Source: Mesaphorura yosii (taxonomy: Eukaryota > Arthropoda > Collembola > Poduromorpha > Tullbergiidae). From it: 64,000 nucleotides of DNA. The notes beneath the pieces are model-generated. The model made no database searches, had not been told where the DNA came from, and saw only the letters and a program-made list of their open reading frames with translations. Both the position numbers and the translations under genes were made by a program. This document shows positions 10,344 to 64,000 of the stretch, in pieces (within the stretch, counting starts at the first letter, position 1; each line of letters opens with the position of its first letter). The stretch is taken from NCBI GenBank assembly GCA_009869945.1, contig WIXG01000240.1, positions 1-64,000 on the forward strand, read 5' to 3'.

Positions 10344-10386
10344 TGCCAACTTTTTATGTTTATTTCAATGAATATTTATTTCTTGG

Positions 10387-12234: not shown

Positions 12235-12257
12235 CACACAACACAACACAACACAAC
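12235..12257. repeat. (ACAAC)n microsatellite
   Basis: About four tandem five-base units of the type CAACA between CACA and ACGT. Simple sequence repeat. Confidence 0.65.
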
Positions 12258-14322: not shown

Positions 14323-14449
14323 AATGAAGCCGGGAGTTCCAAGACCCTCAATTGCTAAAGACTCAAATGCACGTTCTGAGAGTGAAGTTGTCTATCCCTT
14401 CGGAGTACAAAATGATCTGGGCCATGTAGTTCTTACGAGAAACGCCAAG
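14323..14449 (+). CDS. Exon 1: probable start codon and N-terminus
   Basis: A pyrimidine-rich acceptor (ttttctttgcag) precedes one base and then ATG at 14324; 42 codons follow to the donor AAG|GTAAGT, ending in phase 0. The peptide begins MKPGVPRPSIAK and ends GHVVLTRNAK. It joins in frame to the Gly/Pro-rich exon 2. The one-base leader before ATG implies a spliced 5' UTR; if instead an upstream coding exon exists it must end with two bases of a codon. Confidence 0.7.
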
Positions 14450-17400
14450 GTAAGTACCGCCAACAACAACAACGCATGCGCAGATAACCTGCTGCCTCCT
14501 AATGTGGGAATAATCAAATGTAAATGCCATAATGCTTGAATCATGCAGACTCCATTATTGCATAGTTATGGTTATTAGGCTAATAGCTGACAGATATTGC
14601 ACATTATGAATGACTGAAGGAATTCGCCCTCTTTCTCTCCTGCTACTCAGCATTCTGCATTCTCTCTTTACCGCATCGTACTTATTAGACAACTGCATGC
14701 ACTACTGTGCCATGATTAAGCTGATGGCTTTTCATGGCTTCTAATTCGTGGCAAGTCTAATTCTAAGTCGCTAAAATCGCGTCACATATATCGCGGCCGC
14801 TAAAGTCGGGTGGCTATCGTCGTGTTACGGTTTTTCGATGAAGATAGGGTGCATACCTCCCAATTTGGGATGGTCTTAGCCTGGTTTCTGCTTGATAGGA
14901 CAAAAACTTCTCTGGTCAGACTGCAAATCCTTCAGGCGCAAGATAAGTGTGTATTTGCATGGGTGACTTTTTGTGATTTATTCCCAACGCGGTGGGCAGA
15001 GGAAATTTCAAGCAATGGAGACTTAATAGATTGACAGACGATGCAGCGCGGATAAACGTAATAGCTTTAGAGCATCCTCTCTCCTCCTCTGCCCTGAGAG
15101 GCTGAGAGAAACGAATATCCGCCATCAATTCAATCCTTTCCTGTTATCTTGCGAGTACTGGAAATCACTCTTGCTGACATGTCGGAGAAAGCGAGCGCCT
15201 GAGAAGTGTTTATCAGCCACCTCTTTTGCAAAAGCTCGCATTTATTTCCTGAACGTGAATCCTTTTCTCACTCGAAAAGCAACTTGACTCTTCAAGATCA
15301 CTGAGGTAGTGCGAGTTTCAAGGCCGGACGGTGGCAGAGACCATGAAAGAGAACTTCCGCTATTCAAACGTAACGCGACATATGTCCTCGCATTGCCGCA
15401 TTCATTCGGATCGAGTCTTGAGTTAAATTCTGCATTATTGTGGGTTACGTGCCCACCCCAAGCAAGGGAATAACTCCGACCTGTCATTTCATTGAATTCT
15501 GACTGAACCGCATTTCGATTTAGGATTCATTAATGAAATATGACTGGAGTATGGGCAATGTAGCGTGAAAGAAATTCTGGAAGGCCACCCACGGCCATTA
15601 CTCACGTAGCTGGGAAATGGCAAAATGGAATTAAATGAATCGAGTGGGTTGATTTATTTCATTAAAACAGAATAAAATTACAAAAACTGCTTCCACAACA
15701 AACAAAGCCTGATGTGTGTAGACAAAAGATCGAACTTGCGGTCACATTACTCTGACTACTGTGACTCTGCGCTGGTTCGTGTAATTTTCCTCATATGTTG
15801 TGATTTTTGACATTTTATATTTACCCAACGTACAATTGATTCTACTACAAAGACATACGTACAGACTTGTATTTACACTTGTTAATTAGGTGCAGCAGCG
15901 ACATGAAGCAAACAATGCGAATACAAACCAAAAACCGCACAAAAGCGCGCTCAAAATAGGTCTGGCTTTGAATTGCAACATGGCAGAAAGTCGACACTTT
16001 CCGCTGCGTGGCAGAGGCAGGCAAGCAGGCAAGAGCTCAGTGTTTTGCATTTGTGTATGTAACTTCAGCTTTTCGAAAGGCAGAAGGGCACTCAGCTGGG
16101 AACGTGTGAATGAAATGGAAACCAATCGCGAACCACCGTACCCAAACTGAGCAAGTGCAAATCTGTGTTTAAATAACTGAATAACAAGCATGATTCAATG
16201 ACAGTCTAGCTCAGCTCTCAAATTTCAATTTCTGGAAACAATACGCCACGCGCACTGCATGATATCTTGACATGTGTTTTTAGAAACGGAGCAGTCATTT
16301 TGTTACAAATGAGTACAAATAGCTGGCTGACATCATTTACAACAACCCATTCACTTCCTACGCAGACAGTCATCGCTAAATTGATTATGATGTGTTTGCA
16401 TTATGGCCTCAAATGGAGCCTAATGTCGAGGACACGCAAGGCTGATTAATTCCTGGGGCATGGAGGAAACGTAGATTAATGCACGCAATACTGTTTCTCA
16501 TGCGGTATTAACAGACTTTTGTAACCTGCAGTGGCACTGCAGTCAGAACATTGAACGACAACGAGGAAATAAAAGACACTTCCTGAATTTTTCAATCTCA
16601 TTTCTGGTGTAAGCTTCAAAGTTGACTAGCCTGCCTAGTGCGCTGCAGTGGAATGAGGCACAATTGAAAAACCAATAATACATGAAACGCGTGAGCAGCG
16701 GTAGAAGCAAGTACAAACAAGTACAAGCGCATGGGTTCTAACATAATCATGTTGCTGTCGAAATCAATAATCCTCATGGACAGCAACAGATCCATGACAT
16801 CCATTATTCATATGTTTATAAGAAATTTACGTGCCATTCGTTTACTGCTTTCCATTATGATTGCATCACAAATTCCTTAATTCATGTAATGTTCACAAAT
16901 TAAGTATTATTGAGTTCGTGGATGGGAATACGTGAGGTCTAATTGGGCGCGATGCTTATGCTCATGCTGCTTTGGTTTCTGTCCCTTGAATAATTGAATT
17001 TACCCATGCTTTTGTGTTCAGGGGTCCCGGGAGGACGGCCGAGGCGACGGGCACTATGGGTTCCAGGGCCCAGGGCCACCGACCCAGTACGGCTCCCTGC
17101 CGCAAACACCTCCTGCTCCAAACACAGCTTCGGGCAGTGCCGGAAGCAACGTAGCGACACCGCCGAATCCTCCTCTCTCGCCCTGCTTACCCCCACTTTC
17201 AGCACAGTCCGCCGAACCAGAATTACTTTCACCTCGTGTTCTTACAACAAGCGCATCACATTTGTCGCTCCAGTCAACTCGTCACAACAGGTAAGCTGAA
17301 ATGAAGCGGCATTCGCCGTGGATTCACACGTTAGGACTTGTCTCAGTTAAGATTGTTGCATGTTCACTTACCCTAGTTTTGGTGACAGTTACTAATGCGA

Positions 17401-20400: not shown

Positions 20401-23400
20401 TCACACGAAATAAAATTCATGCAGTAATATTGTACACAGGAAAACCTCTCGTGCGTTCTCCTCCATTGAACTTCATATTGCATTTAATGGATGACAAGTA
20501 TTTTATTCTGTTGTAGTCACTACGAGTTTAGAGTCGTCGAGGAGTGGTTGACAGTCCGCAGTGAGTTTGGACGATGAGCAGTTGTGCGTCTGGAGTGGGA
20601 GAACTCGTACGCATTGTCATTGCGTTGTCGTAAGGAAGAAATAAGGCATTAATGATGAAAATGGATAATAAGTGGTTTTTTGTGTAACCAGAAGTTCTAA
20701 CCAGAGAGCCTTTCCACTCTCTCGACAGTTTCACTGCTCGGTGTGGCTCTCACGGCTCAGCCACACGACAGCGCGATGAAGCACGCACATTCGGTGCAAA
20801 TGTGAATGATCCGAGATCAGGCAGGCCAGACAGTTGTTGTGGCGAGAGGCGTCTGCAGTTGTCACGAAATGATGAAATACTGCTGAAAACAGCAAAGTTA
20901 CGCAAACTTTAGAGATAGATGATGGTGATAAGATAAACGGCGCGAGTATACGGCGAAGATCACTTCCTCGTCCTGGTCGCTAACTTTTTTACTTTATTCA
21001 TTACGTCAACGCCACTTCCCCAAGAAGACAAGCGCGAAGCGAGCAAGCGAAGACGTCGTATAAAATATTGAGTTGAGCAGATAAGGAATAAATTCAGTAT
21101 TGGCCTGGCTGGTATTGATTTTAAGATAGAGACAAGCGTGACCGTAAACGTGAGGCTAATTAATTATGAAAAGGCACTCACGGTGGGCACATTAAGCAAA
21201 GGCAGACTCTCAGCGCTGAGATGACGCAACGCAACACGATGACAAAACCCGAGCTTTAGCCTTTTAATTATTCACAGAGTTTTCTCAAACCCTTTGACAT
21301 TCATGTCACTCTAATTAGCCATGCATTTGGCACAAACCTCCATTAAATTCACCAAATGCAAGTGTGCTCGTCTTAAGTGTTTGGTTTCTATTTGATTTGC
21401 AGCCTCGCATCGTCGCTCAGTGACCTGAGCTACGACGTCGCAATCTTAGAGCGGGCTCTAAGGACCAATGATGTTGCTCGGGTCAAGAAATGCTTCGAAA
21501 AACATCGAAATCGCTTTCAGGTGAGTCCAAGCTGCTTTTGAAATCATATTGCAGACGAAACGACTATTGTTTCGCGACTACGAGCAAACTCGTTAAAGAT
21601 CGTCGGAGCAGAGAATGCTAACAATCAGGAGCGCATATTTTTAAATGTTCGTACTCAGCCTCATCGACCATTAAGGAAGAGTACATTAAATTATTCGCCA
21701 TGCATGCTGACGACCTAAAATTGTCCACATCCATCCGCATTGCAATGAGAATGGTATGCCTATCCTACGAAACGGGCGAGTAAGGCGAGCCTGGTAATGT
21801 ACAGTTTATAGTGTCGTTGAGGAAAGTGAGACAGAGAAACTATTTTTTTACAGCATAAAACCGACGCGGGAGGCAGTCTGCCAGGAGGAAAATTTTCATG
21901 AATTCCAGTCACGAACGTGTTGTTGTCTGGATGCACTCTCAGGCAACAAAGCAAAGCGGAAACAGAAGACAGGGAATGAAGCAACGAGGGCGAGAGAAAT
22001 TTCGTTTCAGAGTTTGCTGCTGGAAGTTGTTGTGATATCGTTAGCTCAAGCATGCAGCAACTTGATCTCACTACACTTGACTCTCATAACGATTTAAAAA
22101 ATAGAATGCAAACGACAATAAGACTTTGGGAGAAAACGGCCCATTCAAATGAAACTAAAACATTCCCGTTACCGCTATACGGCTAATGCAGATCAATTCC
22201 GGAGGAATAAGAGCGGCACAGGAGCGGACATCAGGAGAGAGCGAAGGCAGGCAGGCAGGCTTCAAACCATCTCGACATACGGCAAGAGCACGGCGACTCG
22301 AAACGAGAGAAAGACTTGTTGCTGTCAAATCAAATATTTATGATTTGACATTCTAATCGCAAGTGGATGAATATGTCGCTCCTGTAGTTGAAACCGCTTG
22401 CCATCCTATCTCATGACTTTTAATGTGCGGTTCGGAAATTTTGTATGCGAGTTGAGGTTAGACAGTCAATTTAGCTTGCCACTCAAAATAACTTCCACCA
22501 CTAATTTACTCTAACGTACCTGCCCCAGCCTGCCAAAACTCTTCTTCGTGGATGCGAAATGGTGCGTCCAAGTTTATAATCCGTGCAAATTGAAATTGCG
22601 ATCTGTGACAGTGTTTGCAACTTAATTATGACATTTTCGTTTTCGTTAGGAGTTCTTATTTAGAGTGTCAGGGGTTAACGGGCTAAGGCATATTCCAACA
22701 TTTAAAAATGATGTCAATATGCGGCAGGTGATGCATAACCTCGTGGAAACCGTCCTCCTCCGTAAAAATCCTAAAAAGAATTGTAAGTAGTGAGAAAGAA
22801 AAAGGCAAACTTGCACGAGTCGCAATCACGAATGAAAAAGTTGAAATAGACGAGTGTGAAATTAAATTGAAAATTGATGGTGGCAGAGTTTGAATTAAAT
22901 ATGAACAACTCTGAGGTAGTAGGAGCATATTCATGCACGTACGCAGAATCTTCTCATTTTATTGTACCCGTGACTGCTCCGTGCCCTTCATCTATCTGCA
23001 GACGAGACGATGCTCCGAGGATCCGGCATTCCCATGCGAATATTTATTATGCCACACATTATTACCGGGTTTAATATGTGCTTACAGTTATTGGACCGCA
23101 CAACTACTGAGACTGGTGGTGGTGGAGCTGAGGTTCCAGGTTCATCTTTCGCAGCCGCGGTAACTTCTGGGCCTTCACCGCCAACTAAACCTAGGTGAGT
23201 ACGACCGAGTATCTTGACAGTGCGATTGCAGCAAAATACGACGATAAGCAGCAAAGCAATTAATTTGCGAGGATTATGAATGGACGCCGGATCGATTGCT
23301 TCATTCTTTAATTAGAACATCATTTCCGGATTTTGCATGCTCAGTTGTCTGGCCGTCCCATCTCCTGGCTTGAGGCCGGCGGTTGTCAACTGAAAACGAA

Positions 23401-53400: not shown

Positions 53401-56400
53401 TTCCGCATACTAATTGACGACACACACGGCACACTCACTCTGATTGCCATTTTCAAATATCTTTAGTCTCTACTGTTTTACATTTCAATAGACAAAGCAC
53501 GTGTCTGATGACCCGGTATTGTCTAAACATAATCTGGCACTAATGGTACAAATACAACTAATAACTGCATGAGTTGCCAACTCTGAAAAGAAACCACAAC
53601 GCACCTTCTCAACACGGCAGCACAAAAGCTCCTCTTTTGACTCGTCTCTGCTCTTGTCTTCTGCGCGTCACGACGTAAGTTCGCAATTCCCTATTTTTAT
53701 TGCAATGCAAAGGTTGTGATTTTGATCGAGCCTGCTCGACTGCATTCTCATTCCAGGTTTCTCTGTATTTACTTTACAAATATGCGGAGTTAACTTCACT
53801 AATTGCACATTTTTGTGTGTGGTCGTGTGCTTTGATGAATCCACTTGATTTCTTTTGTGTCGTTTGCAGTTTGCGCACTTTATGCTGACTCTTGAAATGC
53901 GAGATATTGCGCAAGTTGTGCCTGGATTAATTAATGCTCGTGCAAACAATCTGTTACGTTAACCGAGCATCGTCCGGTTGAAGCTGCTGTTTGGTTGAGA
54001 AAGTTGATTGCTTTGAATGGAGTTGGTTGATGGTTTTCAAGATCAGTATAAAGTATAAAAACCGGGAAGAGTGCGAGCTCAGCAAACTTCTTGATTAATT
54101 ACTTGCGTCTTGTAGGCACGACGAAAGGAATTATTCAGGTAGAAGCTTGCTTTCTCTTCTTTCTCGATTGCGCGATTAATTTTATTTCATTATTATTGTT
54201 TCTTGATGGCGAAGCAACTTAAAAGAGCAGTGGAGGCAAATTTTTATTAATTACTACAAGCAATTATACGATGCTATTTCCCGGCTCACTTTGCAATTTC
54301 TCCATGCATGCGCGGAAACGTCTGTTAAGAGATTTATTCTGACGCTGATGAAAATACGGCGTTGAATCTTGAATATGTTGGGCCTCCAATTAATTCTTGG
54401 TGTTGAATTACAAATTTATTTAATGAGTAGCAACTTTACGCGGACGTGGGCTCCGAGTCGTAGAATGCGATGGAATCTGACTTCATCATTCTGACGGTAT
54501 TCGTCATTATCTTGCGGTGGCGGATAAACAAATCTGAAACTCCTGCATCATACCCACAATTTTCCAAAGTGTACTCAAATTTGTCATTCATTGTGACGAT
54601 CGCAAGTCTCTCCCACTATTAAGAGACACTGATTCGTGGTGGAACTGCGCACTTTTCTTATAAGTTGATATTCGCTTGTGGGCGGCGGGTCATAATTGAG
54701 TTTAAAGCAATTCAGTTAGGTTCAATTTTCTTCAAGGTTGGAAGTTCCAACTTATGAGATGTATGCCAGAATTTATTATTAAGCTAATCATGTTCTACGT
54801 CTAATTTGTGGATTAATCCCACTATCATATTGGAATACTGTGAAAGTCAGCAAATGACAAAAATAGACTTTCTATTTCAAACACCAAGTTTTAAGGCTGC
54901 CTTTTTGCCTTAATGCGATTTGCGACATTTCGACTATATAAAATGGCAAATGTTGCTGCGATGAGACCCAGACCAACCTTCCAAACTTGAATGTAATGCG
55001 ATTTTCCTCATGCCAATCAAAGGTACGTCGAACTTCTTTCATGTCTCGAGTTCAATAATTTGATCTTTCGACAAAAAAGCTCAAACTTCGCCGCAAATTA
55101 TGCTAATGGCCAAAATATGACAACAGTTAAAAGGCGGCTACCGTTTCCCCGCGAATCTCTGTCAACTGAAAGTCAGTAAAAGTGTGGAGAGGCTTAAGAC
55201 GTGTCACGCATTATTTGTTATGCTGCTAAGTATTTACTTATGGCCTTGACAGTTTTTAAATGCGTCAATAATAAGCACGGCAGTAACACAAATAAGCACT
55301 TAGGTACTTTTTCAAGTGTAATAATTGAATATTTCGTTTGATTCCACATAAGTGCACGAGGAAGAAATAAATAATTGACACAAAATCACAGTTACTTGTT
55401 GTTGGCGAAATTCAAGTAAGGATAAATTATAATGATTTTGATGACACAACTCGAATTTCCAATTTTGTTATCGTTTGATTTTGTCATTTGTTGTCTGTTC
55501 TTTCTCCTGTGATGTTTTCGATCAGGGCACGCAACGAAACAACAACCTCTTTACAAACGTCCGTCTCTGCCAGCAAATTCGGCAAGAGCAGGCCGAGTAC
55601 AAACGAACACTCACCAAGCACTGCTGGCTTCTGTGCCCTTCCAATATGACAGGACTGTGATTTATTCCTTTGAGTGCACTTTCGTTATCAAAGGTAGACC
55701 TCCTGCAGAAGCAGAGACTCGGTTTTCTGTCTCCATTCGTGATGGTGTGCTTTCATCTTCTCTTCTGATCATTTGTGGAGGCATATTTTAGGTTATTATG
55801 ATATTGAATATTAATGAGCACAGCCAAGAAGAAGTGTATCAATATCTGGTGCGCAGGCATTTAAAATTTGGATGCAGCAAAGCGCCATCAGAAATAGAAT
55901 AGAACTCTTGATTTGGGCTTTCCGAGCAATTTGAATTTGATCTGCTTGTAATTTGGTCTGTGACTTTGTCGTGCTGCGTTGCAAGATTAATTGAACCAAG
56001 TTTAATATCCGTATGCTGGGAATCACAAGCCGAGGCATGCCTGAAATCATCGGAATGAAGTACGACACCACTTTGAGCTTTTATCTTGTTGAATCTCACA
56101 GCGTGCTCTCTGCCGTGATGGTCCAAAACACACACGGCATGAACCGTGATCGAGTTCTCATCACTGCCTTTGAAGTTTCATGTCGAATGCTTTCGCGTTC
56201 TGGCGGCTGAGAGAGATACGCTAAAGCAAGTATAAGTTCTCATCAGGGAGACTGGATAGGTTTCTGGAGAGGGAAATTTGTCGGAATTAAAGCATCACGT
56301 TGCAAGACGGCCGCGATGTATTGGTCAGTGGTTCATAAAATCGTCCAAGTTCAAGTCCCATGCATGATTGAATATTTGCTTGGAAGCGACCGCCGAGGCC

Positions 56401-59400
56401 AGCGCCCGCTGGTGAAATCTCATCTAATATTCTTAATGCAAATTGACCTTTCTTCCTCATGAATGCTTCTCGCACATTCGACTTGGTGTTGGTTGACAGC
56501 GACGTACGAGCGTCTAAACGAAAACAACTTCTTCCTTTCAGCTTTCACTCCGTGCGCGTTTAATTTCCAAATTTTAGATGGAAAACAACGGGAGTGCGAA
56601 TCATAAAGACTCTTTCCACATTTTGATGAAATTTATTGCCGCTTGTTCTTTTCCAATCTGTTATGAGTAGTATTAGGCAGCCAACGCCAACTTGTGTGTG
56701 AGCTGTTTCTAATCTGTGTTTTTGTAAATGATAAACTTACACTTTCTGCACCGAAAGTTGTTTATGTAAGTGCGTTTGTGCCTGTGCGGGGCAGGCAGGG
56801 GTCTGTGCTCTGCTTCTGTCTTTCCTTCCTTCCTGCAGCGTTCTTGGGCTCAGATTACACGCTACACGCGTACTGGGCTCGAGAGCGGGCGGCTGAGAAA
56901 GTAGAAAAACAAGATTTTAGGAGAGAGAAATAAATTGATAGTCGTGAGCAATCGCACACGGAGAGTGCTGAGAGTGTGGAGAAATTGTTCTTCGAAATGT
57001 CAAAGACACTCTTTTATAATAAAGTTTGCGTCAGACTCAATTGGAACTCGTTTTTCCTTTGTTGTTCATACCTACTCTGGCATAAACTGCTCCGCCACTT
57101 TGCTCTGTTCTGCCAATGCCTTCCATCACCCTCCTTTGAATATGATTACACATGTAGTTCTAAAAATACACATTTCGGTCCGCACGCTGTCTCTGCTTCA
57201 AAGGTGCGAGTTCGAAGGCAAAAAGTACTCGAGCTGTGCTGTGAGTATAAGCAGGTCAAAAAGTCCCCCAATGATTGAGTTTCTCCTGCTTTCTTTACAT
57301 CTCAATTGTTTCTTCAGTTTTTACTTTCCATTTCGTGTTGATGATAAAATGAAAAGCTGAAACAAAAGTGCTGCTGCGCTGCTGTGAGCTGTAGAAATTG
57401 AATCCATTTTTGTCTGCTGCTGACTTTCGTATCCCGGCCTCATCTCGCTCTTTTACAGCTCCCTTTTCCCTTTTGTCATTTGGTTCTCCCTGTTTATTAT
57501 TACTCGTTTATCTTTTCGATTCGATTGGATTCCTTTCATCTTGTGTACGTTTATAAATGCGAATATAAGTGATATTTTGCGTTAGCCCTTTCCTGTTGTT
57601 TCATCTCTCTCCAAATCTCGTGGCATGGATTTATTGTGTTCTCTTTTATTTTGGCAGGAACAAAAACGCAAGCTATTCCACACGTCCGTATACGAGTCGG
57701 CGACACAGCTTCAAAAGTTGTATGTTCAAAGCTGTCGAAGGCTACCAGCTTACGGTTGTCGCCTGGTGGTTGTTAAAGAACTTCTCCGGGGAAAAACCAA
57801 AAAGAAGGTAAGAGAATAAAAGAAAAGATCAAAATCTTGTTCTTTTCTGTTCGCTATTTCTATGTGTGTGACATTATTAATATTATTATTACTTTTATAT
57901 ACTCTAAAACCCTCAATCAACCCAGACTCCCAGAACAGACCGAACAGGCGACATGCACCAGATTAGGTTTTTAATCAATGCCTGGCCGCGAAAGTCTGTT
58001 CAGGCACCTGACATGTGAAGCTTGAAAGCTACAAGTTTTCCTTTTCTCAGGAAATGATTACAGAATTGAATTCCTCATCACTGTCGATACAAGACAAGCG
58101 AATGCATGTAGTCTCGTGTTTTGCTTCATGCATGCTTTCTCTCCATCAACATTTCCACATCCAAGCGGAGGCTCGGACCCAGCCTCGTGCGTGGAGGTCT
58201 CTCTCACTCACTCTAAACGTTTGCGAACTTCAGAGTATGGGTATTTTCCATCAGGTATATATTTGGAACTAGCAATTACGCAATACTAGTTGCTCAATAT
58301 GTATTCGAGCTTTATTAACATCACTAGTAATGAATTATATGTTTTCACCGACCAAATCGTCCTCAGTGCTTGCGAGAATATCCTGTAAAATAGTTATGAA
58401 AATTGGTGCAAAATAATCCCCGGTGTCGCACCTCCGCATGAATACGGCACACATGTGCTTCTAGAAAATGCCAGATTCTCGAAACACCTTCTCGCATTGA
58501 TGAGCACTAAGCGTGCCATGAACATATGTGCAAATGCGCACTTATCGAAAAGTATTCTGATGCTGACGGTCTCGGAGTGGTGATCAAAATTGAGCCATGT
58601 CTGAGCTCTTGAACTCTGAACTTTGTTCCTAATGCAGAATCTGAGCTGAGGCTGAAGTTCTCGAATGGCAGCTCGTAGTTGAATTTAAACTTATTCAGTA
58701 TCTGCTTCTGAAGGCATTGAACCAGATTAAAGTTTAAATTGTTGCTCAATACATACTGACAAATACTTGTTCTGGGAAGTCGTAATTCGAATGCTCACAG
58801 TAAATAAAAAGCTGTCAACACAAATCGTGCCATTTCGTACTGAATTATGCACAAGAAGTCTATTTGCTTAGGGAAGAGCTTGGCCCAGCAAAGGCTGCAT
58901 TTCTAATTGCTATGAACGGCGACGGTACATATTTGCATTGTCACTGTGCTGAAATGAGGCACAACTCAATTTTGCTACTTGATTATGCGTGAACACATCG
59001 AAAATTCATTGAATCTCCAAATATTCACGTATCGACTTTGTCGCCCTTCGTACGAGCAGGCCAATTTCGCAGGTAGAGAAAGTGGAGTCGAGGCATCCTT
59101 CCATGTAATAGGAAATATTGCATAGTCGTCTAATGAAATACCTCTTTCAGCTTTCAATTAACTTAAAATTACAATAGCAGCAAAATTGGTTTCAGATTCA
59201 CTCGAATTGTCGTGCTCGGGCAGTTGAGGCTCGATTCCCATGCGTGCAATGATGAGGACGCTTGATACGCTTTCTCTTCTGGAGCCCACATTGAATTGCG
59301 TGGCATGGCACATGTCTCAGAATCACATCTCGCACTTATTAACATGGTGATGGCGTATTTAGAGGAGCGCGTCGTCGAGCCGAGGCACCAGTGATGCTTC

Positions 59401-62400
59401 GAAGCTCATTGAGGAAGGTTTCCTGACTTTCACTTTCGTCATCTAGAGGACTTTTGCTCTCTTCTTCTTGACTCTTCTCGAGAACCTGTGCTCAGGCACG
59501 CCACAGTGTAGTGATTCACCGAGCAGGAATTTCTTGATTTGCTTTTAATGAAAATATTATTCGATACTCGTACTAAATTCAGGAACAGGAAACCAGTATA
59601 GCAGCACATAGAGCACTAATTTTGAGTAATAAGTTGTATCGTTGCAAGCTTCACATGTTTCCATCGACGCTTACTGGAGCGATAGGAGTGTAGTGCGTGT
59701 GGTCGAGTTTTGGGGTCTTAGGAATGTCTTATTCCGTTTTGAGAGCGTGTTTTGATTACGTGAAATATAAGTTTTCATTACTTCCCAACTTTTTCTTTCC
59801 ATCCCGTCTCGTGCTCAGTGTTCTCTTCGTCTGTATTGAGTTCCTCCTTAAATAATCTTCCACATTAATAATATATTCTCATTTCTCTTCCAACTCGCCA
59901 CCACGACCAAAGGCCACGAGGTTATTAGGAATCGGTCCTGAGAAAATCATTCTTCTCGATTGCCGAACCAAAGTTCTCGCTCGATCGCAACTGACTTCGG
60001 ACCTCATTCAGGTACGTGTATTTCAGTCTCAGAGTTCAATAGATTTATTGCTAAATCTTTGCAACAGCGCGCGCTGCACTTTCCTGTGCGGATAATATCA
60101 ATTTGTACCTTTTACAATTGCTCTTTCTCATTTCGTTAATACACTTTCCATGCATCGGCTGCAACTGCCTGGTTGTTGGCTTTGCTCCGGTTCGTGCTGG
60201 CAGTCGGCATGCGGTCTCACTATGCTTCTCGGGATATTACAATTACGCGTGCAATGTGTCGTTTTATTTTCCTGAGTAGAATGATATCAAAGTTTTTGCT
60301 ATTTTTCTGACCAAAACTTTCTCCTTTCTCGTGCTTATCTGCCTGTCTTGCACGCTCCGTGTCTGTCTCTCTCCTCTCCAGTGCACGAAATCCTTCTTGC
60401 AAAACTTGCTTGAAATAATTTCTTTCGTTGTCTCGTACTTGCTATTCTCCAGTCTCTGTGGCTTGCAAGGCTGCAAAGCAAACAGGAAGACGAGCGTGAT
60501 ATTTATCATATCTCGCGAATTTGCTTCGAGCCTGTCCGCCCTGGCTTGTTGTCTCGTCATAACCAAAGAATTCTCATGGTCACTCACGCCAGACTTGATC
60601 TTGGTGTCTGCGCAATAATTGGATTTTGCTCTTGCAAGTCGTTAGCATTTCAATACGTTTCAAAGTGTTCGGCGCGTTTCGTCTCACCATTGCCAAACGT
60701 TAAATGGTAAAACCGAATGATGACTTTGCAGTGGCGTGCTGGTGGCGGACGAAATCATGATCGGCTAACTCTCGAGTTCCGCAGCACGAGATGGGCTTTA
60801 CTGGTTCCACCAGTTGGTAGTGCGCCGTCTTCATCAGGGGTTTCATGCGGACATTTGGGGTCTGTTGGCGGACTCCGTGAAGCAGGAAGAGCTTTATGGG
60901 CACTACTTCGTGAAATGGACACAACTTTCCTTGATGACTTTACTGTTCCCAAGAAGAATGCGCCAACCGAGTCTGGTAGGTGGACGGGCGAGTTCCGCTC
61001 CGCTTGTTTTGTCGTGGAAGGACGCTGATGGCTGACCTAAAAGGCTAAACAGGTTGCGGGGCAATAAATTTAACGTATAAAAACTTTATAGCAGGCACCA
61101 AGAAAACATGGCAAATGAAATCAAATGTCAGTCCCGAGTTGGAACAGCTGGAGAAAATCCTGCACTTCCCCGAGGAAGTCGCTGCCGCCTTGGCGGAGAC
61201 CGAAAGCCAACTCTTCTGTCAGGTAAGAGCTTATCACTGGAGGAAAATCCTCATTTTGTCACAGCGGCTGCCTGACATCGTGTACCCTGTCATTTCTGTC
61301 CAATCAGGTTGCGCCGTTAGAGTACTTGAGGCACGTCACTCACGACCTGGCAAATAATGACGGCCAAAATCGAGACCCAAATGCTCAACCAGTGCTTGGC
61401 GTTCAGAGTCTCATTGATCGCTTTAACGAAGTAAGTTCCTCCGCTCACTTATGTCCTCATTTGAAATGACAGCCCGAAATGCCTGAATCAAGCTCCTCGA
61501 TTTGGTACCCGTTTTCCTAATGAGTTTTATTATTTAGCGACTTAATAATACAGTTCATTATGACGAGTGCTTATTAGCCCGTCTTGATGAGACGGAATCT
61601 TTGCATGTGTTTTGTTTTCTCTTTCCACAGATTAGTTCCTGGGTAACTCATTTACTTGTGTCTCCGCCAAGTCACGATGAAAGAAAGGCGATGCTTTCAT
61701 GTCTCCTTCGTGTTGCCAAAACCGCATGGAATGTCGGGGCTTTCGGAACTTCAGTCGAAGTCATCGCCGGGCTCAAGTAAGTTTCCCTTTTAATTTCCAA
61801 CTTTTAACCAACATATATGGAACGTTCTTTTCCTCGTCCGCTCTGCTTTCTCGTCTTGTAATCCTTTGTGCTTGGCTGATATGCCAAAACCGCATAGAAC
61901 TTCATCCTTTCATGCAAGACAGAAACAAGAGTTTAGACTTAATGCATCATCCCGGGACTCAGCTCAGCGATTTCTTTGTGTTCTTATTTATTCAAATAGT
62001 CTCTGTGTTCAAAATAGCACTGCCAGATGCAATCAGCTCTCTTGGAGCAAGTCAAAAGTTCTGTGTCCTTTGTAGTAGTAAATCCAATCTCTTTATGGTG
62101 GAGCCTGCTGGTTGTTTCTCAGCTCTTTAATAGAATCATCAGATTTGAATTTTCAAAATAATGAGACATGTGGTCACATTAACTTTAAGGCGCTGCATAT
62201 TGTTACTTCTTCGTAATCGTAGATTGTTACAATCCCAGCGTTGATTGAATGTATGCATTGGCATTTATTAAATATGATCGGCACGTATTTTTTAAGTCAA
62301 AAAATGTGTTAAGAATTTTTGTAGTTTATAGTTCTAGAAGCTCCGGCAATATGAGTACATTAGACGGGCAAGGTGCTTTGACTTCTTATTGAATATGACA

Positions 62401-64000
62401 TAACGTTTTACTCCCTCATAGCCAGATAGTTTATAGTGTGAGATCTGTACAGCATAGTTTGTGGAGATAAACTAAGATGAAATGTAGGTCGTTATTCGCT
62501 GACATTTCGCTAAGATTTTAAAGATATTAAACGAGCGAAATGTGTGTTATCCATTAAGCCATCTGTCCAAACTCTGCAGCGTAGTTTTCGTGTTTCTCTC
62601 GCGCACCCACTTAATAACAGGAAGAAATTTGAAAAGAAACAGTTTGCGAAGAAGATGATGAAACTTGCCTCAAGTGATTCCCGTCACCGTGAAATGCTAA
62701 ACTTTTCCCGCTTCGAAGCTGTGAAGATGAAGTGCAAATTGTCAAGAAAGAAGACGAAGTTTGTGTTTTGACAGGCGATTGAACAGAATAGTAGAGGCAG
62801 GGGTTTCTTTCGGCCTCCAGCCGTTAAAGCATGTTGTAGGCCGACGGAAACTACTTGCCTCTACGACTCTGGACCTCAACCCTTTCTGTTTCCATTCTTG
62901 TCTTGTTTTCTCTCCACTCGACATCATCTGGCGTCCCACGTCGTAAATTCAAGCCTCAGCTCTTTATGGACGACCGGGCACTAAAACCGTCATCTGCGAA
63001 ATTATTCCAAGTGCGCGACGCCGTCCTCTCGTCATGATTATTTACATTTATTCAAGTATTTAATTGAAGGAGCACAGGACACACTCGTAAAAGTTTATTT
63101 GAGAAATTGATATCGACATCAAAATCAGGAAATCATGCCTCAGTGAACGGCACATCATTAAATATTTTATTATGTGACGTATAATAAACATAAAAATGGG
63201 ATTTGCAGAAGGTGCCCAGTCCCTGCTTCCGGCTGACTGAGAGCGAAATTGATTTCAGTCAAATTTTTTACGACTACCTTTGCTAATAAAATGTTGACAT
63301 GCCTCCCGCTCATTATTTATATTGCATGCAGGTCTTCCAAACTGAAGCCGTTCTGGCTGTCACTGCACGAGAAAGAGGATGTCGTGCCGACGCTTGACAT
63401 ATTGACGAAGGCGCTGCTCGGCGAGAAGATTGGCATCGGCGGACTCGACACGGAGAAGAATGACTTGCACTGGAGTGCTCCCGAGTATGACGTCGCGCTG
63501 CAGAGGGCTTTAAAGATTCCTACCTGTCCGGTCGTGCCATTCTTCGGAGCGTACCTCAAAGAACTGAGAACGATTCTTGGCAGCCCCTCTTTGGTTGTCC
63601 TTTCGTCGAGCACAGAACAATCTCAGCTTCAAGTAAGTTACAATTTCTCTACACTTCAAACAAACTCCATTAACTTTACTTTAAAGTTTGCGTTGAGAGT
63701 CGATTCTTTCGTTGCCGTCAAAACGAAACGAGTTCTAAAGTACAAGAGGCTGAAGTGCGATCAGAGATTTTTAGTGTGTATCGTCATATTTGCGAAGTTC
63801 TCTCAGGTCCCTACATCAAATAACGTATCAGGATTCTGAGTCATGGAAGCTCGCACTGGCATACGACAGGAAATGATCAAGTTCTTTACTCCTGCTCATT
63901 ACTTAATTTTTCGTGCTTGGAAACCGCAGGTTCTAATGAGTCTTGACGTGGAGGATGAATTTTTTACGAAAATTGGTCCCGGAGGACTGCTTAACATGAA
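14323..64000 (+). CDS. Ankyrin-ARM-FERM-RasGEF multidomain protein, 33 exons, 3' end outside the window
   Basis: Thirty-three exons join with matching phase into one frame of about 2,415 residues, open to the right edge. Domains by residue: ankyrin-like repeats around 135-250 and 640-720; ARM/HEAT-like helices 850-980 and 1060-1430; Pro/Ser-rich linker 1430-1755; FERM F2 lobe 1837-2044 with a loop insertion; FERM F3 (PTB-like) 2045-2150; RasGEF from about 2180. FERM lobes bind membranes or receptor tails and RasGEF domains load GTP on Ras or Rap, so a cortical GTPase activator with scaffold repeats is inferred. No signal peptide or membrane segment is evident. The start is taken as the ATG at 14324, one base after an acceptor, so a non-coding upstream exon is expected; a coding upstream exon is not excluded. 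I do not recognise the gene by name. Confidence 0.9.
14450..17021 (+). other. Intron 1 (2.6 kb)
   Basis: GTAAGT donor and TTCAG acceptor. I see nothing in it that I can name; open frames on both strands are short and overlapping. Confidence 0.7.
17022..17290 (+). CDS. Exon 2: Gly/Pro/Ser-rich N-terminal region
   Basis: Acceptor TTGTGTTCAG and donor CAG|GTAAGC bound a frame with no stop, entering in phase 0 and leaving with two bases (phase 2). The peptide (residues 43-132) is low-complexity: Gly/Asp-rich at first, then Pro/Ser/Ala-rich with motifs such as PPNPPLSP and PCLPPLS. It is probably disordered. GC content is clearly higher than in the flanking introns. No domain is recognised. Confidence 0.85.
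17291..21402 (+). other. Intron 2 (4.1 kb)
   Basis: GTAAGC donor and TTGCAG acceptor. It contains a 93-codon frame (19065-19343) with no recognised similarity and no paired splice sites, so it is left uncalled. No repeat family was recognised. Confidence 0.75.
21403..21520 (+). CDS. Exon 3: helical segment, start of ankyrin-like region
   Basis: TTGATTTGCAG acceptor; CAG|GTGAGT donor; phase 2 in, phase 0 out. Residues 132-171 include DLSYDVAILERALRTNDVAR and then VKKCFEKHRNRF. The pattern (L-x-A-L-x-x-N-D-x-x-x-V-K-x-x) resembles the paired helices of an ankyrin repeat or its N-terminal cap. Strong splice sites and phase fit on both sides make the exon secure; the ankyrin assignment is an inference from pattern. 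Confidence 0.88.
21521..23087 (+). other. Intron 3 (1.6 kb)
   Basis: GTGAGT donor and TTACAG acceptor. A short (GGCA)n run at 22246-22260 is the only repeat noticed. Confidence 0.72.
23088..23194 (+). CDS. Exon 4: Gly/Ser/Pro linker
   Basis: Acceptor GTGCTTACAG, donor CCTAG|GTGAGT; phase 0 in, phase 2 out, 107 bases. Residues 172-207 begin LLDRTTTETGGGGAEVPG and are rich in Gly, Ser, Thr and Pro. It links the helical segment of exon 3 to the first clear ankyrin repeat in exon 5. The frame fits only in this phase. Confidence 0.8.
23195..23580 (+). other. Intron 4 (386 bp)
   Basis: GTGAGT donor and GTCCAG acceptor; nothing else recognised. Confidence 0.75.
23581..24236 (+). CDS. Exon 5: ankyrin repeat followed by Ser/Arg-rich insertion
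   Basis: Second longest exon (656 bases), acceptor TTGTGTCCAG, donor GGTG|GTAAGC; phase 2 in, phase 1 out. It opens with an ankyrin-type helix pair, NALHLAVEWGANDVIRYLLR followed by ESVDPNKGG (about residues 228-256). The remaining 170 residues are Ser/Arg/Cys-rich, for example FSRNSSRNVSSESSRC, and likely disordered. Repeats normally stack without a break, so this is the start of a long insertion in the ankyrin array. Confidence 0.9.
24319..24708 (+). CDS. Exon 6: basic, Ser-rich insertion within the ankyrin region
   Basis: Separated from exon 5 by an 82-bp intron; acceptor AATTCTCAG, donor CACAG|GTTTGT; phase 1 in, phase 1 out. Residues 426-555 are very basic and carry repeated R-x-x-S motifs, such as LKRRVSWVSS, RLPRQRSFSLE and EARRSISLKSS. 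These resemble sites for basophilic kinases and 14-3-3 binding, which is an inference. No folded domain is recognised. Confidence 0.87.
24709..25562 (+). other. Intron 6 (854 bp)
   Basis: GTTTGT donor and ATAAAG acceptor; nothing else recognised. Confidence 0.72.
25563..25909 (+). CDS. Exon 7: end of insertion and second clear ankyrin repeat
   Basis: Acceptor TTGTCCATAAAG (pyrimidine tract moderate), donor CAA|GTAAGT; phase 1 in, phase 0 out. Residues 556-671 start acidic (DDDQYELDG), pass a Ser-rich stretch (SVSYSSCSWSDVS), and end in an ankyrin unit, LPPLFLACSRGRSTPVGLLL with QYGAKATIQ. The ankyrin turn continues directly into exon 8, so the boundary lies between repeats. Confidence 0.87.
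25910..26553 (+). other. Intron 7 (644 bp)
   Basis: GTAAGT donor and TTTTAG acceptor; nothing else recognised. Confidence 0.75.
26554..26788 (+). CDS. Exon 8: canonical ankyrin repeat and helical cap
   Basis: Acceptor GATTTTTAG, donor CAAG|GTAACG; phase 0 in, phase 1 out. It encodes DSLGNTPLHLAVIQSS, which matches the ankyrin core G-x-T-P-L-H-L-A, then DPILDLMEAGGKIGVRNQHG and ISPLELLP, the start of a further repeat. The end (QQQLVADCWLGLVLEDAAHL) looks like a C-terminal cap. This is the most typical ankyrin unit in the protein (residues 672-749). Confidence 0.92.
26789..26875 (+). other. Intron 8, 87 bp, stop-free and in frame
   Basis: GTAACG donor and TTTCAG acceptor. The length is a multiple of three and no stop lies in the reading frame, so retention would insert 29 residues (starting NENNWKRRIV) without breaking the protein. 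Other short introns of this gene are 71-96 bp, so the size is normal for splicing. Confidence 0.7.
26876..27093 (+). CDS. Exon 9: basic linker after the ankyrin region
   Basis: Acceptor GCATATTTCAG, donor AAAG|GTTAGA (weak); phase 1 in, phase 0 out. Residues 750-822 are basic, including SRLFKKLHEARHHRDKGD, then Gly/Pro/Thr-rich. The 87-bp gap to exon 8 is open in frame, so exons 8 and 9 could also be read as one longer exon adding 29 residues. Short size and good sites favour a real intron. Confidence 0.82.
27293..27371 (+). CDS. Exon 10: lysine/arginine-rich linker
   Basis: Short exon (79 bases), acceptor TGCTTGAATAG, donor GCAG|GTTGGT; phase 0 in, phase 1 out. It encodes PEPKKKLRRRKDKGSKPH. 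Such a cluster could serve as a nuclear-localisation or phospholipid-contact sequence; the sequence alone does not decide. It bridges the ankyrin part to the first ARM-like helices. Confidence 0.8.
27448..27659 (+). CDS. Exon 11: first ARM/HEAT-like helices
   Basis: Acceptor TGTCATTCAG, donor CTC|GTAAGT; phase 1 in, phase 0 out. Residues 849-919 are amphipathic and Leu-rich: WSELARCLLTLKSLATNDEC, then LDDVLQGLVLHSQSLLERFQ, a polar loop (PPTTDVPHDPHQ) and LSGLLHTLIL. The spacing of hydrophobic residues fits ARM/HEAT-type helical repeats. Exon 12 continues the last helix. Confidence 0.88.
27745..27926 (+). CDS. Exon 12: ARM/HEAT-like helices
   Basis: Acceptor TTTTCCATCAG, donor GAGAG|GTAAGC; phase 0 in, phase 2 out. 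It encodes VAVQCHTMREEPKKYLSDVL and then CIICKSCLLLATGPHPLQYT and AMVALNKIIDISTAYRL. The helix-turn-helix rhythm and the conserved-looking core favour a folded repeat domain (residues 920-979). An 85-bp intron separates it from exon 11. Confidence 0.9.
28023..28267 (+). CDS. Exon 13: Ser/Ala-rich linker inside the ARM region
   Basis: Acceptor GATTCTTTAG, donor CTGG|GTGAGT; phase 2 in, phase 1 out. Residues 980-1061 are Ser/Ala/Thr-rich (SSAIVSSSGQSATAPSQT) and end with lysine-rich sequence and a short helix (KVHNTVLSGQDLL). It is probably a disordered loop between two ARM-like blocks. The next exon lies 5.9 kb downstream. Confidence 0.87.
28268..34211 (+). other. Intron 13 (5.9 kb)
   Basis: GTGAGT donor and TTGCAG acceptor. 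It holds the TTATCGC foldback repeat (32926-33196). No nested gene or RNA gene could be supported. Confidence 0.8.
32926..33196. repeat. Foldback element made of TTATCGC-type units
   Basis: Nine copies of TTAT(C/T)(G/A)C start at 32928, 32942, 32956, 32972, 32988, 33005, 33019, 33035 and 33050, spaced 14-17 bases (the third reads CTATCACC). After about 100 bases the inverse, GCGATAA or CGATAA, appears at 33155, 33172 and 33184 with similar spacing. The outer ends pair imperfectly (TTATCGCAGCCCGGTTATCG against its partner). GTAGGAT flanks both sides (32918-32924 and 33197-33203) and may be a target duplication. Between them CACCCC(G/A)CAATGA(A/G)CTCCC occurs twice. Confidence 0.6.
34212..34317 (+). 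CDS. Exon 14: ARM/HEAT-like helix pair
   Basis: Acceptor CTTCTGTTGCAG, donor GTGAG|GTAATC; phase 1 in, phase 2 out. It encodes EILEPVVGPIVNILHNAVTL and YKRTIGSRQICTPSVR. Strongly helical and hydrophobic, with the feel of a repeat cap. The phase links exon 13 and exon 15 correctly across a 5.9-kb and a 0.8-kb intron. Confidence 0.88.
34318..35150 (+). other. Intron 14 (833 bp)
   Basis: GTAATC donor and TTCACAG acceptor; nothing else recognised. Confidence 0.75.
35151..35298 (+). CDS. Exon 15: ARM repeat
   Basis: Acceptor TTTATTCACAG, donor CCG|GTAATT; phase 2 in, phase 0 out. Residues 1097-1146 include CLQLLSARLLVFLVHATTVQ and APLRIFVAALDATNDP. The pattern (helix, short turn, amphipathic helix ending in a D-x-x-N-D-P turn) is typical of armadillo units and continues directly into exon 16. 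Confidence 0.9.
35299..36313 (+). other. Intron 15 (1.0 kb)
   Basis: GTAATT donor and ATTTCAG acceptor. The reading frame of exon 16 stays open upstream to 36119, but no acceptor there fits the phase of exon 15. Confidence 0.75.
36314..36566 (+). CDS. Exon 16: ARM repeats
   Basis: Acceptor TTTATATTTCAG, donor TCAG|GTTGGT; phase 0 in, phase 1 out. It encodes QLLCLVLQILATLALDPAHH then KPLMDAGIAEALPPLLLP, a classic ARM repeat (helix 2, G-I/A turn, helix 3), and a second unit ending HHAARVLVYLGL. An earlier GTGAGC after CTCCGA would put exon 17 into a frame with a stop, so the later donor is preferred. Confidence 0.9.
36758..36930 (+). CDS. Exon 17: continuation of helical region
   Basis: Acceptor AATATTGCAG, donor GAG|GTAATT; phase 1 in, phase 0 out. 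Residues 1231-1288 start polar (EESTIQSGSLGNEDLF), pass ITWTCSTPPPVLGHLHQQGG and end in a helix (SVESTLLRVLKSLE). No named domain is recognised; position suggests a loop and helix within the ARM-like block. Confidence 0.87.
37024..37147 (+). CDS. Exon 18: Ser/Asn/Pro-rich loop
   Basis: Acceptor TACTCTTTCCAG, donor GAGA|GTAAGT; phase 0 in, phase 1 out. Residues 1289-1329 (VSVAPSSPYLRDNNPSNWLS, then SPSRNCFSPAILHYRRHS) are polar and Pro-rich, likely an exposed loop. Short introns on both sides (93 and 71 bp). Confidence 0.85.
37219..37523 (+). CDS. Exon 19: last ARM-like helices and Ser/Arg-rich tail
   Basis: Acceptor CCTTTTTTGCAG, donor CAA|GTGAGA; phase 1 in, phase 0 out. It encodes FVRVFQTCFSSIVHPTILLR and LLLHRLLSTGLALRRWKS, two strongly hydrophobic basic helices, then a Ser/Arg-rich stretch (RTSRSRASSTDTESIPLRRR). 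The helices could close the ARM block or form an amphipathic membrane-contact element; neither is proven. Confidence 0.88.
37524..37865 (+). other. Intron 19 (342 bp)
   Basis: GTGAGA donor and GCTTAG acceptor; nothing else recognised. Confidence 0.75.
37866..38249 (+). CDS. Exon 20: acidic/Ser-rich linker
   Basis: Acceptor CTTTGCTTAG, donor ACAG|GTATGA; phase 0 in and out (128 codons). Residues 1432-1559 include an acidic start (GEESSVLHELEETASPPEPT), SPKKSVVRGIFSKWRSSSQE and a Gly/Ser-rich end. Likely disordered. Since both ends are phase 0, skipping it would keep the frame. Confidence 0.88.
38250..38781 (+). other. Intron 20 (532 bp)
   Basis: GTATGA donor and CCTCAG acceptor; nothing else recognised. 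Confidence 0.75.
38782..39411 (+). CDS. Exon 21: proline-rich linker with SH3-ligand-like motifs
   Basis: Acceptor TTTCTTCCTCAG, donor GAA|GTAATT; phase 0 in and out (210 codons, residues 1560-1769). It opens with basic Ser motifs (RKSSARRLSRNRSLDV), then an acidic helix (PEDEILAFQRRLQNLPDFLD), then poly-proline sequence such as PPSPPALPPPSPRPRS and PSPPSPGF. P-x-x-P next to Arg suits SH3 or WW binding, an inference. The final DMPAMHRAVLLFVE begins a helix completed in exon 22. Confidence 0.92.
39442..39449. repeat. Left target-site duplication of the hAT MITE
   Basis: CGAACTTC directly before the CAGG end, identical to the copy after the element. Confidence 0.9.
39450..39996. mobile_element. 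Non-autonomous hAT-type DNA transposon (MITE), 547 bp, in intron 21
   Basis: The ends are perfect 15-bp terminal inverted repeats, CAGGCTTGGGCAGAT at 39450-39464 and its complement at 39982-39996. Both sides carry the identical 8-bp direct repeat CGAACTTC (39442-39449 and 39997-40004), the target-site duplication length of hAT elements; a CAGG start is also usual for that superfamily. The element has no transposase frame. Its interior is packed with AAGATAA and TCTAGATAA motifs in both orientations, probably subterminal repeats. Confidence 0.9.
39997..40004. repeat. Right target-site duplication of the hAT MITE
   Basis: CGAACTTC directly after the CCTG end, identical to the copy before the element. 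Confidence 0.9.
40045..40182 (+). CDS. Exon 22: helical domain before the FERM lobes
   Basis: Acceptor CATTTCATTGCAG, donor TTTG|GTACGT (TTG|GTA in frame); phase 0 in and out. It encodes DWITTCRPNGNTIVIRELKD then FVARVSSCGPPYLRWADHIR. The helical pattern looks folded. It sits where a FERM F1 (ubiquitin-like) lobe would be expected but looks all-helical, so I leave it unnamed. It joins the last helix of exon 21. Confidence 0.88.
40463..40525 (+). CDS. Exon 23: short acidic helix
   Basis: A 63-base exon with acceptor TTTGTTCGTAG and donor GGAG|GTATGT, phase 0 in and out. It encodes GEEDASELESLEAIENEYWE, an acidic helix leading into the FERM F2 lobe. The size is small but sites and frame are good, and the helix runs on smoothly into exon 24. 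Confidence 0.83.
40526..41601 (+). other. Intron 23 (1.1 kb)
   Basis: GTATGT donor and TTCACAG acceptor. A 117-codon frame at 40708-41058 shows no recognisable domain and overlaps another long frame; it is left out. Confidence 0.75.
41602..41805 (+). CDS. Exon 24: start of FERM F2 lobe
   Basis: Acceptor GTCCATTCACAG, donor CGG|GTGAGT; phase 0 in and out. MQRLVVCGTLPCSKEEAAVL followed by AGIQLRLEECWP matches the first helices of a FERM F2 lobe, where the G-x-L-P-C-S/T-x-E-E-A-x-x-L-A pattern is typical. The rest (RPPRTTAPAGVNATSAPHT) is a Pro/Thr-rich loop insertion. Confidence 0.9.
41917..42186 (+). CDS. Exon 25: FERM F2 loop insertion and mid-lobe helix
   Basis: Acceptor CGAACGCAG, donor AAG|GTGAGT; phase 0 in and out (90 codons, residues 1905-1994). 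The first 70 residues are a polar insertion (LEEPAPPAPKKSGVGRAVYL). The end, KIEDLVPPYYVHAGNMHRLI, matches the FERM F2 region just before the helix continued in exon 26. A 15.5-kb intron follows. Confidence 0.88.
48767..48797. other. Perfect 12-bp hairpin with a competing third arm
   Basis: AGACAGAGTTAC (48767-48778) pairs perfectly with GTAACTCTGTCT (48786-48797) across a seven-base loop. A further CGTAACTCT at 48798-48806 could pair instead with AGAGTTACG at 48771-48779. No RNA family is recognised. Confidence 0.5.
54054..54138 (+). promoter_or_regulatory. Possible internal promoter with 5' UTR exon and donor
   Basis: TATAAAA at 54054-54060 is followed by TCAG with its A at 54081, 27 bases from the first T, as in arthropod core promoters. 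The stretch from there reaches a donor-like TTCAG|GTAGAAG at 54138. It lies 3.5 kb before exon 26, so a transcript from here would begin inside the FERM domain. All of this rests on short motifs. Confidence 0.2.
57658..57807 (+). CDS. Exon 26: end of FERM F2 lobe
   Basis: Acceptor TTTATTTTGGCAG, donor AAG|GTAAGA; phase 0 in and out. EQKRKLFHTSVYESATQLQK, LYVQSCRRLPAYGCRLVVVK and ELLRGKTKKK match the FERM core (K-L then S-x-x-x-A-x-x-x-Y-x-x-x-C-R-x-L-P-x-Y-G), the most recognisable FERM signature in the protein. It directly continues exon 25, so no exon appears to be missing from the 15.5-kb intron. Confidence 0.93.
57808..59912 (+). other. Intron 26 (2.1 kb)
   Basis: GTAAGA donor and CCAAAG acceptor; nothing else recognised. 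Confidence 0.78.
59913..60011 (+). CDS. Exon 27: FERM F3 (PTB-like) lobe, first strands
   Basis: Acceptor CCACGACCAAAG, donor CAG|GTACGT; phase 0 in and out (33 codons). ATRLLGIGPEKIILLDCRTK then VLARSQLTSDLIQ follows the F3 pattern of a strand carrying L-G-I, a strand with I-x-L-L-D, a turn, and a strand leading to the I/L-x-x-W motif completed at the start of exon 28. Confidence 0.92.
60012..60731 (+). other. Intron 27 (720 bp)
   Basis: GTACGT donor and TTGCAG acceptor. A 95-codon frame (60331-60615) lies inside but carries no recognisable sequence. Confidence 0.78.
60732..60975 (+). CDS. Exon 28: FERM F3 lobe, remaining strands and C-terminal helix
   Basis: Acceptor GACTTTGCAG, donor TCTG|GTAGGT; phase 0 in, phase 1 out. 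WRAGGGRNHDRLTLEFRSTR and WALLVPP supply the W and the F3 strand pattern (L-x-L-E-F). A Gly/Ser loop follows, then a helix (LREAGRALWALLREMDTTFL) in the position of the F3 C-terminal helix. The tail leads into the RasGEF domain. Confidence 0.92.
61092..61222 (+). CDS. Exon 29: FERM to RasGEF linker and first RasGEF helix
   Basis: Two acceptors three bases apart (TATAG and GCAG) allow a start at 61092 or 61095; both keep the frame and differ by one residue. Donor TCAG|GTAAGA, phase 0 out. ELEQLEKILHFPEEVAAALA then ETESQLFCQ matches the opening of a RasGEF domain, where a helix with E-x-x-L-F precedes the P-x-E-Y-L motif of exon 30. Confidence 0.88.
61308..61430 (+). CDS. Exon 30: RasGEF domain, N-terminal part
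   Basis: Acceptor TGTCCAATCAG, donor GAA|GTAAGT; phase 0 in and out (41 codons). VAPLEYLRHVTHDLANNDG is the P-x-E-Y-L motif of CDC25-type exchange domains, and GVQSLIDRFNE corresponds to the conserved V-x-x-L-I-x-R-F-N helix that precedes the W-V motif in exon 31. Confidence 0.93.
61631..61776 (+). CDS. Exon 31: RasGEF domain, core helices
   Basis: Acceptor CTTTCCACAG, donor CTCAA|GTAAGT; phase 0 in, phase 2 out. ISSWVTHLLVSPPSHDERKA, MLSCLLRVAKTAWNVGAFGT and SVEVIAGLK fit the RasGEF core (W-V-x-x-L, R-x-x-x-L-x-x-x-I/L-x-x-A, then the N-x-F-N-x-x-x-A-I-x-x-x-L-N region). Here that last motif reads GAFGTSVEVIAGLK, so its usual Asn residues are absent. Confidence 0.93.
61777..63331 (+). other. 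Intron 31 (1.6 kb), within the RasGEF core
   Basis: GTAAGT donor and TGCATGCAG acceptor. The split codon AAG joins GLK to SSKLKPFW. Nothing else recognised. Confidence 0.8.
63332..63632 (+). CDS. Exon 32: RasGEF domain, helical hairpin region
   Basis: Acceptor ATTGCATGCAG, donor CAA|GTAAGT; phase 2 in, phase 0 out. SSKLKPFWLSLHEKEDV follows the L-N/K-S-x-x-x region. YDVALQRALKIPTCPVVPFF with GAYLKELRTI matches the C-V-P-F-x-G-x-Y-L-x-D-L segment of CDC25 domains, which in Sos-type exchangers packs under the hairpin that opens the Ras nucleotide site. An insert rich in Gly and Asp lies between. Confidence 0.93.
63930..64000 (+). CDS. Exon 33 (partial): RasGEF domain, cut by the window edge
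   Basis: Acceptor GGAAACCGCAG, phase 0 in; 71 bases are visible and remain open. VLMSLDVEDEFFTKIGPGGL then LNM corresponds to the segment where RasGEF domains read F-x-x-x-I-G-x-G-G-L-x-N / I-N-F-x-K, ahead of the last helices. The rest of the domain and whatever follows lie outside. Confidence 0.88.

Follow-up and report, generated by a model that had tools for sequence, protein, structure and literature searches.

A probable PLC-epsilon gene with ankyrin and talin-like FERM modules predicted ahead of its CDC25 domain in the collembolan Mesaphorura yosii

What kind of protein is encoded by the long series of plus-strand exons found on a contig of Mesaphorura yosii (WIXG01000240.1)? The window, i.e. 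the whole stretch of DNA analysed, covers positions 1-64000 of this 122,966-base contig from a 93.0 Mb genome, and the 20 kb flank past position 64000 was also analysed. The original prediction described a single polypeptide combining ankyrin repeats, an ARM/HEAT-like block, a FERM F2-F3 pair and a RasGEF domain, which, if conserved across invertebrates, would be a little-described Ras/Rap activator. We find it fairly probable that the region is instead the bulk of the 5' portion of one animal PLC-epsilon gene with an unusually long N-terminal part. The order of the modules would then be ankyrin, helical (possibly ARM/HEAT), Ser/Pro-rich, talin-like FERM F2-F3, CDC25, PH, EF, X, Y, C2, RA1 and RA2, in a protein of about 3400 residues, and we infer a single mRNA joining all of them.

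The coding signal was measured by an exon-chain score, which uses codon use from 2535 training codons, some of them from the lipase half of the same gene, together with generic splice matrices. Between 14 and 61 kb this score reaches 123.0 on the plus strand and 53.0 on the minus strand, whereas none of 10 dinucleotide shuffles exceeds 11.3. The multi-exon coding signal is therefore real, and it lies mostly on the plus strand. It is strong in two blocks, 14-28.5 kb and 34-42.5 kb, where the minus strand also scores above the shuffles (17.4 and 33.8), probably as a shadow of the plus-strand exons. On the plus strand the signal is weak at 42.5-57.5 kb (6.3 vs a shuffle maximum of 2.7) and at 57.5-61 kb (3.0 vs 2.0), and by the same score it is absent from 28.5-34 kb. 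In positions 1-14000 of the window both strands (0.1 and 0.9) score below the shuffle maximum of 4.3; coding signal is missing there, and this stretch is a long gene desert or the 5' region upstream of the gene.

Exons were assembled in an anchored gene model, whose hand-set anchors include the FERM exons, the ankyrin exons 25563-25909 and 26554-26788, and the F3 exon 60732-60975. As the predictor is small, home-made and guided by such anchors, exon boundaries away from the domain-supported junctions are provisional. The model has 35 exons and 34 introns, and 27 of the exons start within the window, not the 33 proposed originally. Nor does the gene end at 64000; it runs on, and the model ends at 71601 in the flank. 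Several introns are short, 60-125 bases.

The first block contains the start of the model, the ankyrin part and a few exons of less certain character.

14324 to 14449, plus strand: candidate first coding exon from the gene model, with its ATG at 14324, a donor of 5.6 and an acceptor-like AG right before the ATG; without homology.
17022 to 17290, plus strand: candidate low-complexity Pro/Ser-rich exon, from the gene model only.
21403 to 21520, plus strand: possible first, degenerate ankyrin exon (LSYDVAILERALRTNDVARVKKCFEKHRNRFQ), found in unanchored models, absent from the anchored one, plausible by eye.
23581 to 24236, plus strand: ankyrin-repeat exon (NALHLAVEWGANDVIRYLLRE), Pfam Ank E 4.9e-4, slightly under the cut-off of 21.1 bits.
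25563 to 26788, plus strand: ankyrin repeats over a phase-0 junction, exons 25563-25909 and 26554-26788.
27448 to 28267, plus strand: helix-rich-looking exons 27448-27659 and 27745-27926 and a Ser/Ala-rich exon 28023-28267, from the gene model.

Searched one at a time, all three ankyrin exons tested stay below the Pfam cut-off (20.7, 14.8 and 15.0 bits). Once the last two are joined, the repeats that had been proposed do rise above it, with whole-sequence scores of 24.7 vs 22.3 bits for Ank_3 and 24.3 vs 21.1 bits for Ank; three further Ank models are under the cut-off in this joined segment. The exons at 27448-28267 have no relevant match in Pfam or PDB.

The second block opens with the exons that had been labelled ARM-like.

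34212 to 36566, plus strand: "ARM-like" block, exons 34212-34317, 35151-35298 and 36314-36566, within the strong coding signal of 34-42.5 kb.
37866 to 39411, plus strand: two long low-complexity Ser/Pro-rich exons, 37866-38249 and 38782-39411, with high coding scores.

The ARM/HEAT label finds no support in Pfam or PDB: no ARM/HEAT profile matches the block at E<=1, PDB yields no match up to E 10, and its only two Pfam matches are sub-threshold and to unrelated families. The structure predicted for exon 36314-36565 is all-helical, with a mean pLDDT of 58.6, too uncertain to use. A search of this genome that scored the best candidates only found no second copy of the segment. None of five exons tested, the Ser/Pro-rich ones among them, matches a family in NCBIfam, a prokaryotic library.

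The gene model is the one link by which the ankyrin half would be connected to the FERM half, across the 5.9 kb (28267-34212) that separate the ankyrin and ARM-like parts. The ankyrin block (14-28 kb) might instead be a gene of its own, with a second gene from about 34.2 kb carrying the helical block, FERM, CDC25 and the lipase. The lack of coding signal between 28.5 and 34 kb would fit such a division, as would the stop immediately past the donor at 28267. Just ahead of exon 34212 there is also an in-frame ATG (34190), which could be the start of a separate gene. However, the donor at 28267 (3.2) and the acceptor at 34212 (3.5) are good and phase-compatible, there is no AATAAA or ATTAAA in the first kilobase past 28267 (the nearest is at 29278), and by eye helix-rich-looking exons lie on both sides of the gap. 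We consider a separate ankyrin gene unlikely, yet a reading to be kept in mind beside the single gene that we prefer.

Following the Ser/Pro-rich exons of this preferred gene, the FERM part is spread over exons on both sides of a long intron.

40463 to 42186, plus strand: first part of FERM F2, exons 40463-40525, 41602-41805 and 41917-42186, with a Pro-rich insert.
42187 to 57657, plus strand: 15.5-kb intron within FERM F2, whose two flanks align to consecutive stretches of a single Pfam profile in phase 0/0.
57658 to 57807, plus strand: second part of FERM F2, with talin nearest in PDB.
59913 to 60975, plus strand: FERM F3 (PTB-like), exons 59913-60011 and 60732-60975; the start aligns to talin, the remainder is assigned by eye.

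Neither half of F2 reaches the FERM_M cut-off of 23.8 bits by itself. Exons 41602-42186 score 13.5 bits over profile positions 23-50, and exon 57658-57807, in which the motif RRLPAYGC lies at 57736 on the plus strand as originally reported, scores 13.8 bits over positions 88-111. The cut-off is passed only when both sides of the 15.5-kb intron are joined: the score is 30.5 bits (profile 5-111) when the linker exon 40463-40525 and the F3 exons are included, and 25.1 bits for a longer segment without the linker exon. The model also placed an exon at 51938-52030, which is distrusted as it interrupts the FERM domain, and it was excluded from every FERM test. Two ordered parts of one profile, on the same strand and joined at phase 0, are unlikely to arise by chance, and they bridge the intron. 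Nine open frames inside it (42.2-57.4 kb) have no credible Pfam match and neither has the open frame 828-1208; these ten frames gave only two sub-threshold matches, to unrelated families.

In PDB, talins make up all 24 matches listed for the FERM part (E 1.3e-5). This likeness begins in the last part of F2, runs through exon 59913-60011 and stops four codons into exon 60732-60975. Of the F2-F3 pair originally proposed, F2 stands by its joined FERM_M score and F3 is not confirmed, having no Pfam match at E<=10 on its own and only its start aligned to talin. The acceptor at 59913 is weak (-2.3), and exon 60732-60975 has a codon score of -4.2. No F1 lobe is matched by Pfam in the joined FERM segment, which begins late in exon 38782-39411. 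A genome search scoring the best candidates only found no second copy of the FERM segment, save one weak match (29% identity, E 8e-6), perhaps talin itself.

Whether FERM and RasGEF belong to one chain depends on a single short intron.

60976 to 61094, plus strand: intron of 119 bases between FERM and CDC25, GT-AG and phase-compatible, with a TGA at 61026 and an AATAAA at 61063 when read through.

The donor at 60975 scores 2.9 and the acceptor at 61095 scores 1.5; one base before the intron and two after it complete a codon, and no stop arises at the join. Both unanchored runs omit exons 59913-60011 and 60732-60975 and use 60838-60979 in another frame. This rival exon has the better codon score (2.5 vs -4.2), which weakens the F3 label, and a poor donor (-0.3). 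It too joins 61095 in phase, and since both candidate exons do so, the FERM-CDC25 join is independent of the choice of frame.

The intron itself looks in part like the end of a gene, with its TGA, its AATAAA (0.12 expected by chance in 119 bases) and a GC-rich start, and these features count against the join. The first 50 bases have a GC content of 0.62, the highest among the 34 model introns, and the codon score of stretch 60976-61025 is slightly positive (1.6). There could thus be two neighbouring genes or an operon, in which an ankyrin/helical/FERM scaffold ends at the TGA and PLC-epsilon begins with CDC25 about 70 bases further on, trans-spliced at 61095; both proteins would be complete in their domains. 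Against this, coincidence would have to explain the good in-phase donor at 60975. Donors this good occur at 0.56 per kb, so the chance of an in-phase one in a tail of about 75 bases without an intron is about 1%. A separate PLC-epsilon start at 61095 is also awkward because the first ATG after it, at 61108, is out of frame; the in-frame ATG at 61115 is the second. Further, there is scant room for a promoter, and PLC-epsilon would be left without any N-terminal region. An SL1 spliced-leader model has 0 matches in this genome, which says little, the control genomes likewise being without a match. All in all, we judge two genes at this point to be improbable.

Weighing these points, we favour one gene at the FERM-CDC25 junction, perhaps with an intronic poly(A) form. 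Of the single polypeptide originally claimed, the part that is likely to hold is a chain carrying both FERM and RasGEF, suggested by the phase-matched 119-base intron and by the FERM domain split over the big intron; the inclusion of the ankyrin repeats remains a matter of the gene model. It can be speculated that one gene gives two products, one being the complete PLC-epsilon with all its front modules (ankyrin, helical, talin-like FERM), the other a scaffold-only ankyrin/FERM form ending in the FERM-CDC25 intron at the TGA and AATAAA. We regard this as doubtful. If true, the cell could switch between a silent competitor at adhesion sites and an active Rap1-GEF/lipase using the same dock.

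The favoured single gene continues across the end of the window into the lipase half.

61095 to 63632, plus strand: CDC25/RasGEF domain, exons 61095-61222, 61308-61430, 61631-61776 and 63332-63632.
63930 to 64000, plus strand: exon crossing the window end (to 64105), followed by PH, EF, X, Y, C2, RA1 and RA2 to about 71601, from Pfam, PDB and the gene model.

The RasGEF domain that had been recognised is clear, with 61.0 bits in Pfam against a cut-off of 23.1 (profile 1-162 of 181), and its motif VAPLEYLRHV lies at 61308 on the plus strand. A genome search places a PI-PLC X domain at 68151-68692 on the same contig and plus strand, 4.2 kb past the window. In the flank Pfam finds X (143.9 bits), Y (123.3 bits), C2 (48.0 bits) and two C-terminal RA stretches (85.3 bits). 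EF hands are just under the cut-off (EF-hand_like, 19.1 bits vs 21, from a single exon); the EF and start-of-X exons are among several lipase-side exons that unanchored runs include and the anchored model skips. The motifs SHNTYL, YHGHT, ELDCWDG and IENHC, which we take to be the catalytic motifs of the lipase, are intact, and an acidic X-Y stretch is present. In a phmmer search of PDB, the best match of the Y/C2 part is PLC-epsilon (E 8.5e-91), with the best other isoform at 5e-39, and both matches of the PH stretch at E<=1 are PLC-epsilon chains, 9ax5 and 9b13 (E 3.1e-21). Four of six listed PLC-epsilon features are found: CDC25 N-terminal to the lipase, an epsilon-type PH, X/Y/C2 and two RA domains. 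Judged by sequence likeness, the RasGEF module is the CDC25 domain of an animal PLC-epsilon, because X, Y, C2 and RA follow it and the Y/C2 part has PLC-epsilon as the closest structure. The Ras/Rap activator of the original prediction is accordingly replaced by PLC-epsilon, whose X, Y, C2 and two RA domains lie just past the window.

A Ras/Rap activator complete in itself, with the scaffold modules but lacking a lipase, would agree with the confirmable modules lying on one strand in the stated order, but it is very improbable, as the PH region of PLC-epsilon's own type comes after CDC25 and the lipase and RA domains follow on the same strand.

Further along the same contig, at about 80.7-84.0 kb, the next downstream genes resemble, by eye, an acyl-CoA dehydrogenase and a chitinase-domain protein. 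Elsewhere in the assembly, contigs 454 and 647 have long open frames that match RasGEF and PI-PLC-X (1112 and 948 aa). By eye these look like a PDZ/cyclic-nucleotide RapGEF and a PLC-gamma, with long uninterrupted coding, unlike the FERM/PLC-epsilon gene. The Taeniidae antigen, TTR-52 and COX1 families have 0 matches in this genome; for the first two the control genomes gave none either, and those two results say little. Pattern searches for relatives of the FERM-CDC25 peptide gave 41 matches in genomes and 5 in viral contigs, and those with a two-row PLC-epsilon alignment gave 83 and 62; 0 were confirmed in these collections, where few relatives are to be expected as they hold prokaryotes and viruses only.

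How could such a protein work? The CDC25 domain of PLC-epsilon is a known Rap1A GEF, and Rap1A-GTP binds RA2 and sustains lipase activity, as stated in a 2026 review (PMC13022664). From the families present, we suggest that the FERM and the ankyrin/helical part would hold the enzyme at adhesions or at the cortex, plausibly at a site of integrin or cortex type given the likeness to talin. At the docking site CDC25 would load Rap1 with GTP, and Rap1-GTP would bind the RA region and keep the lipase working, so that IP3/Ca2+ and DAG would be produced locally. The front part would thereby set where the known Rap1 feed-forward loop runs.

Among known systems, KRIT1 combines ankyrin repeats with FERM and is a Rap1 effector. 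The protein proposed here shares with it the order ankyrin then FERM and the Rap1 setting. However, KRIT1 is absent among the 24 PDB matches listed for the FERM part, and to our knowledge it is without the CDC25 and lipase that are found here. For the FERM part, PDB has nothing closer than talin F2-F3. Talin differs in that here no F1 is recognised in the segment tested, F2 has a Pro-rich insert, and the likeness stops at the start of F3, with CDC25 coming next.

The closest system is PLC-epsilon itself (PLCE1; PLC-1 in C. elegans), in which CDC25, PH, X, Y, C2 and the two RA domains follow one another as they do here; it shares the acidic X-Y linker and is the best PDB match. The difference lies in front of CDC25. 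The 2026 review calls the role of the N-terminal ~300 residues unclear and describes the mammalian N-terminus as lacking homology to any other protein; its main text nowhere uses the terms FERM, ankyrin or armadillo (PMC13022664). In the present gene, FERM and, it appears, ankyrin repeats stand in front of CDC25. Titles and abstract starts in the open-licence literature contain no description that we found of FERM or ankyrin repeats in PLC-epsilon, and in the part of PMC2394772 consulted FERM and RasGEF occur in separate table rows only. In C. elegans, the consulted part of PMC2274882 names CDC25 and PH domains in PLC-1 and reports defective epidermal cell migration in plc-1 mutants, a defect that fits an adhesion- or cortex-addressing role but is no test of it. 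PLC-epsilon itself is well known; the added front modules are the new part, and they may already be annotated in public proteomes. A PLC-epsilon with a talin-like FERM and ankyrin repeats before its CDC25 domain would suggest such an addressing role, and this architecture would tie Rap1 activation, docking and IP3 signalling together physically in a single chain.
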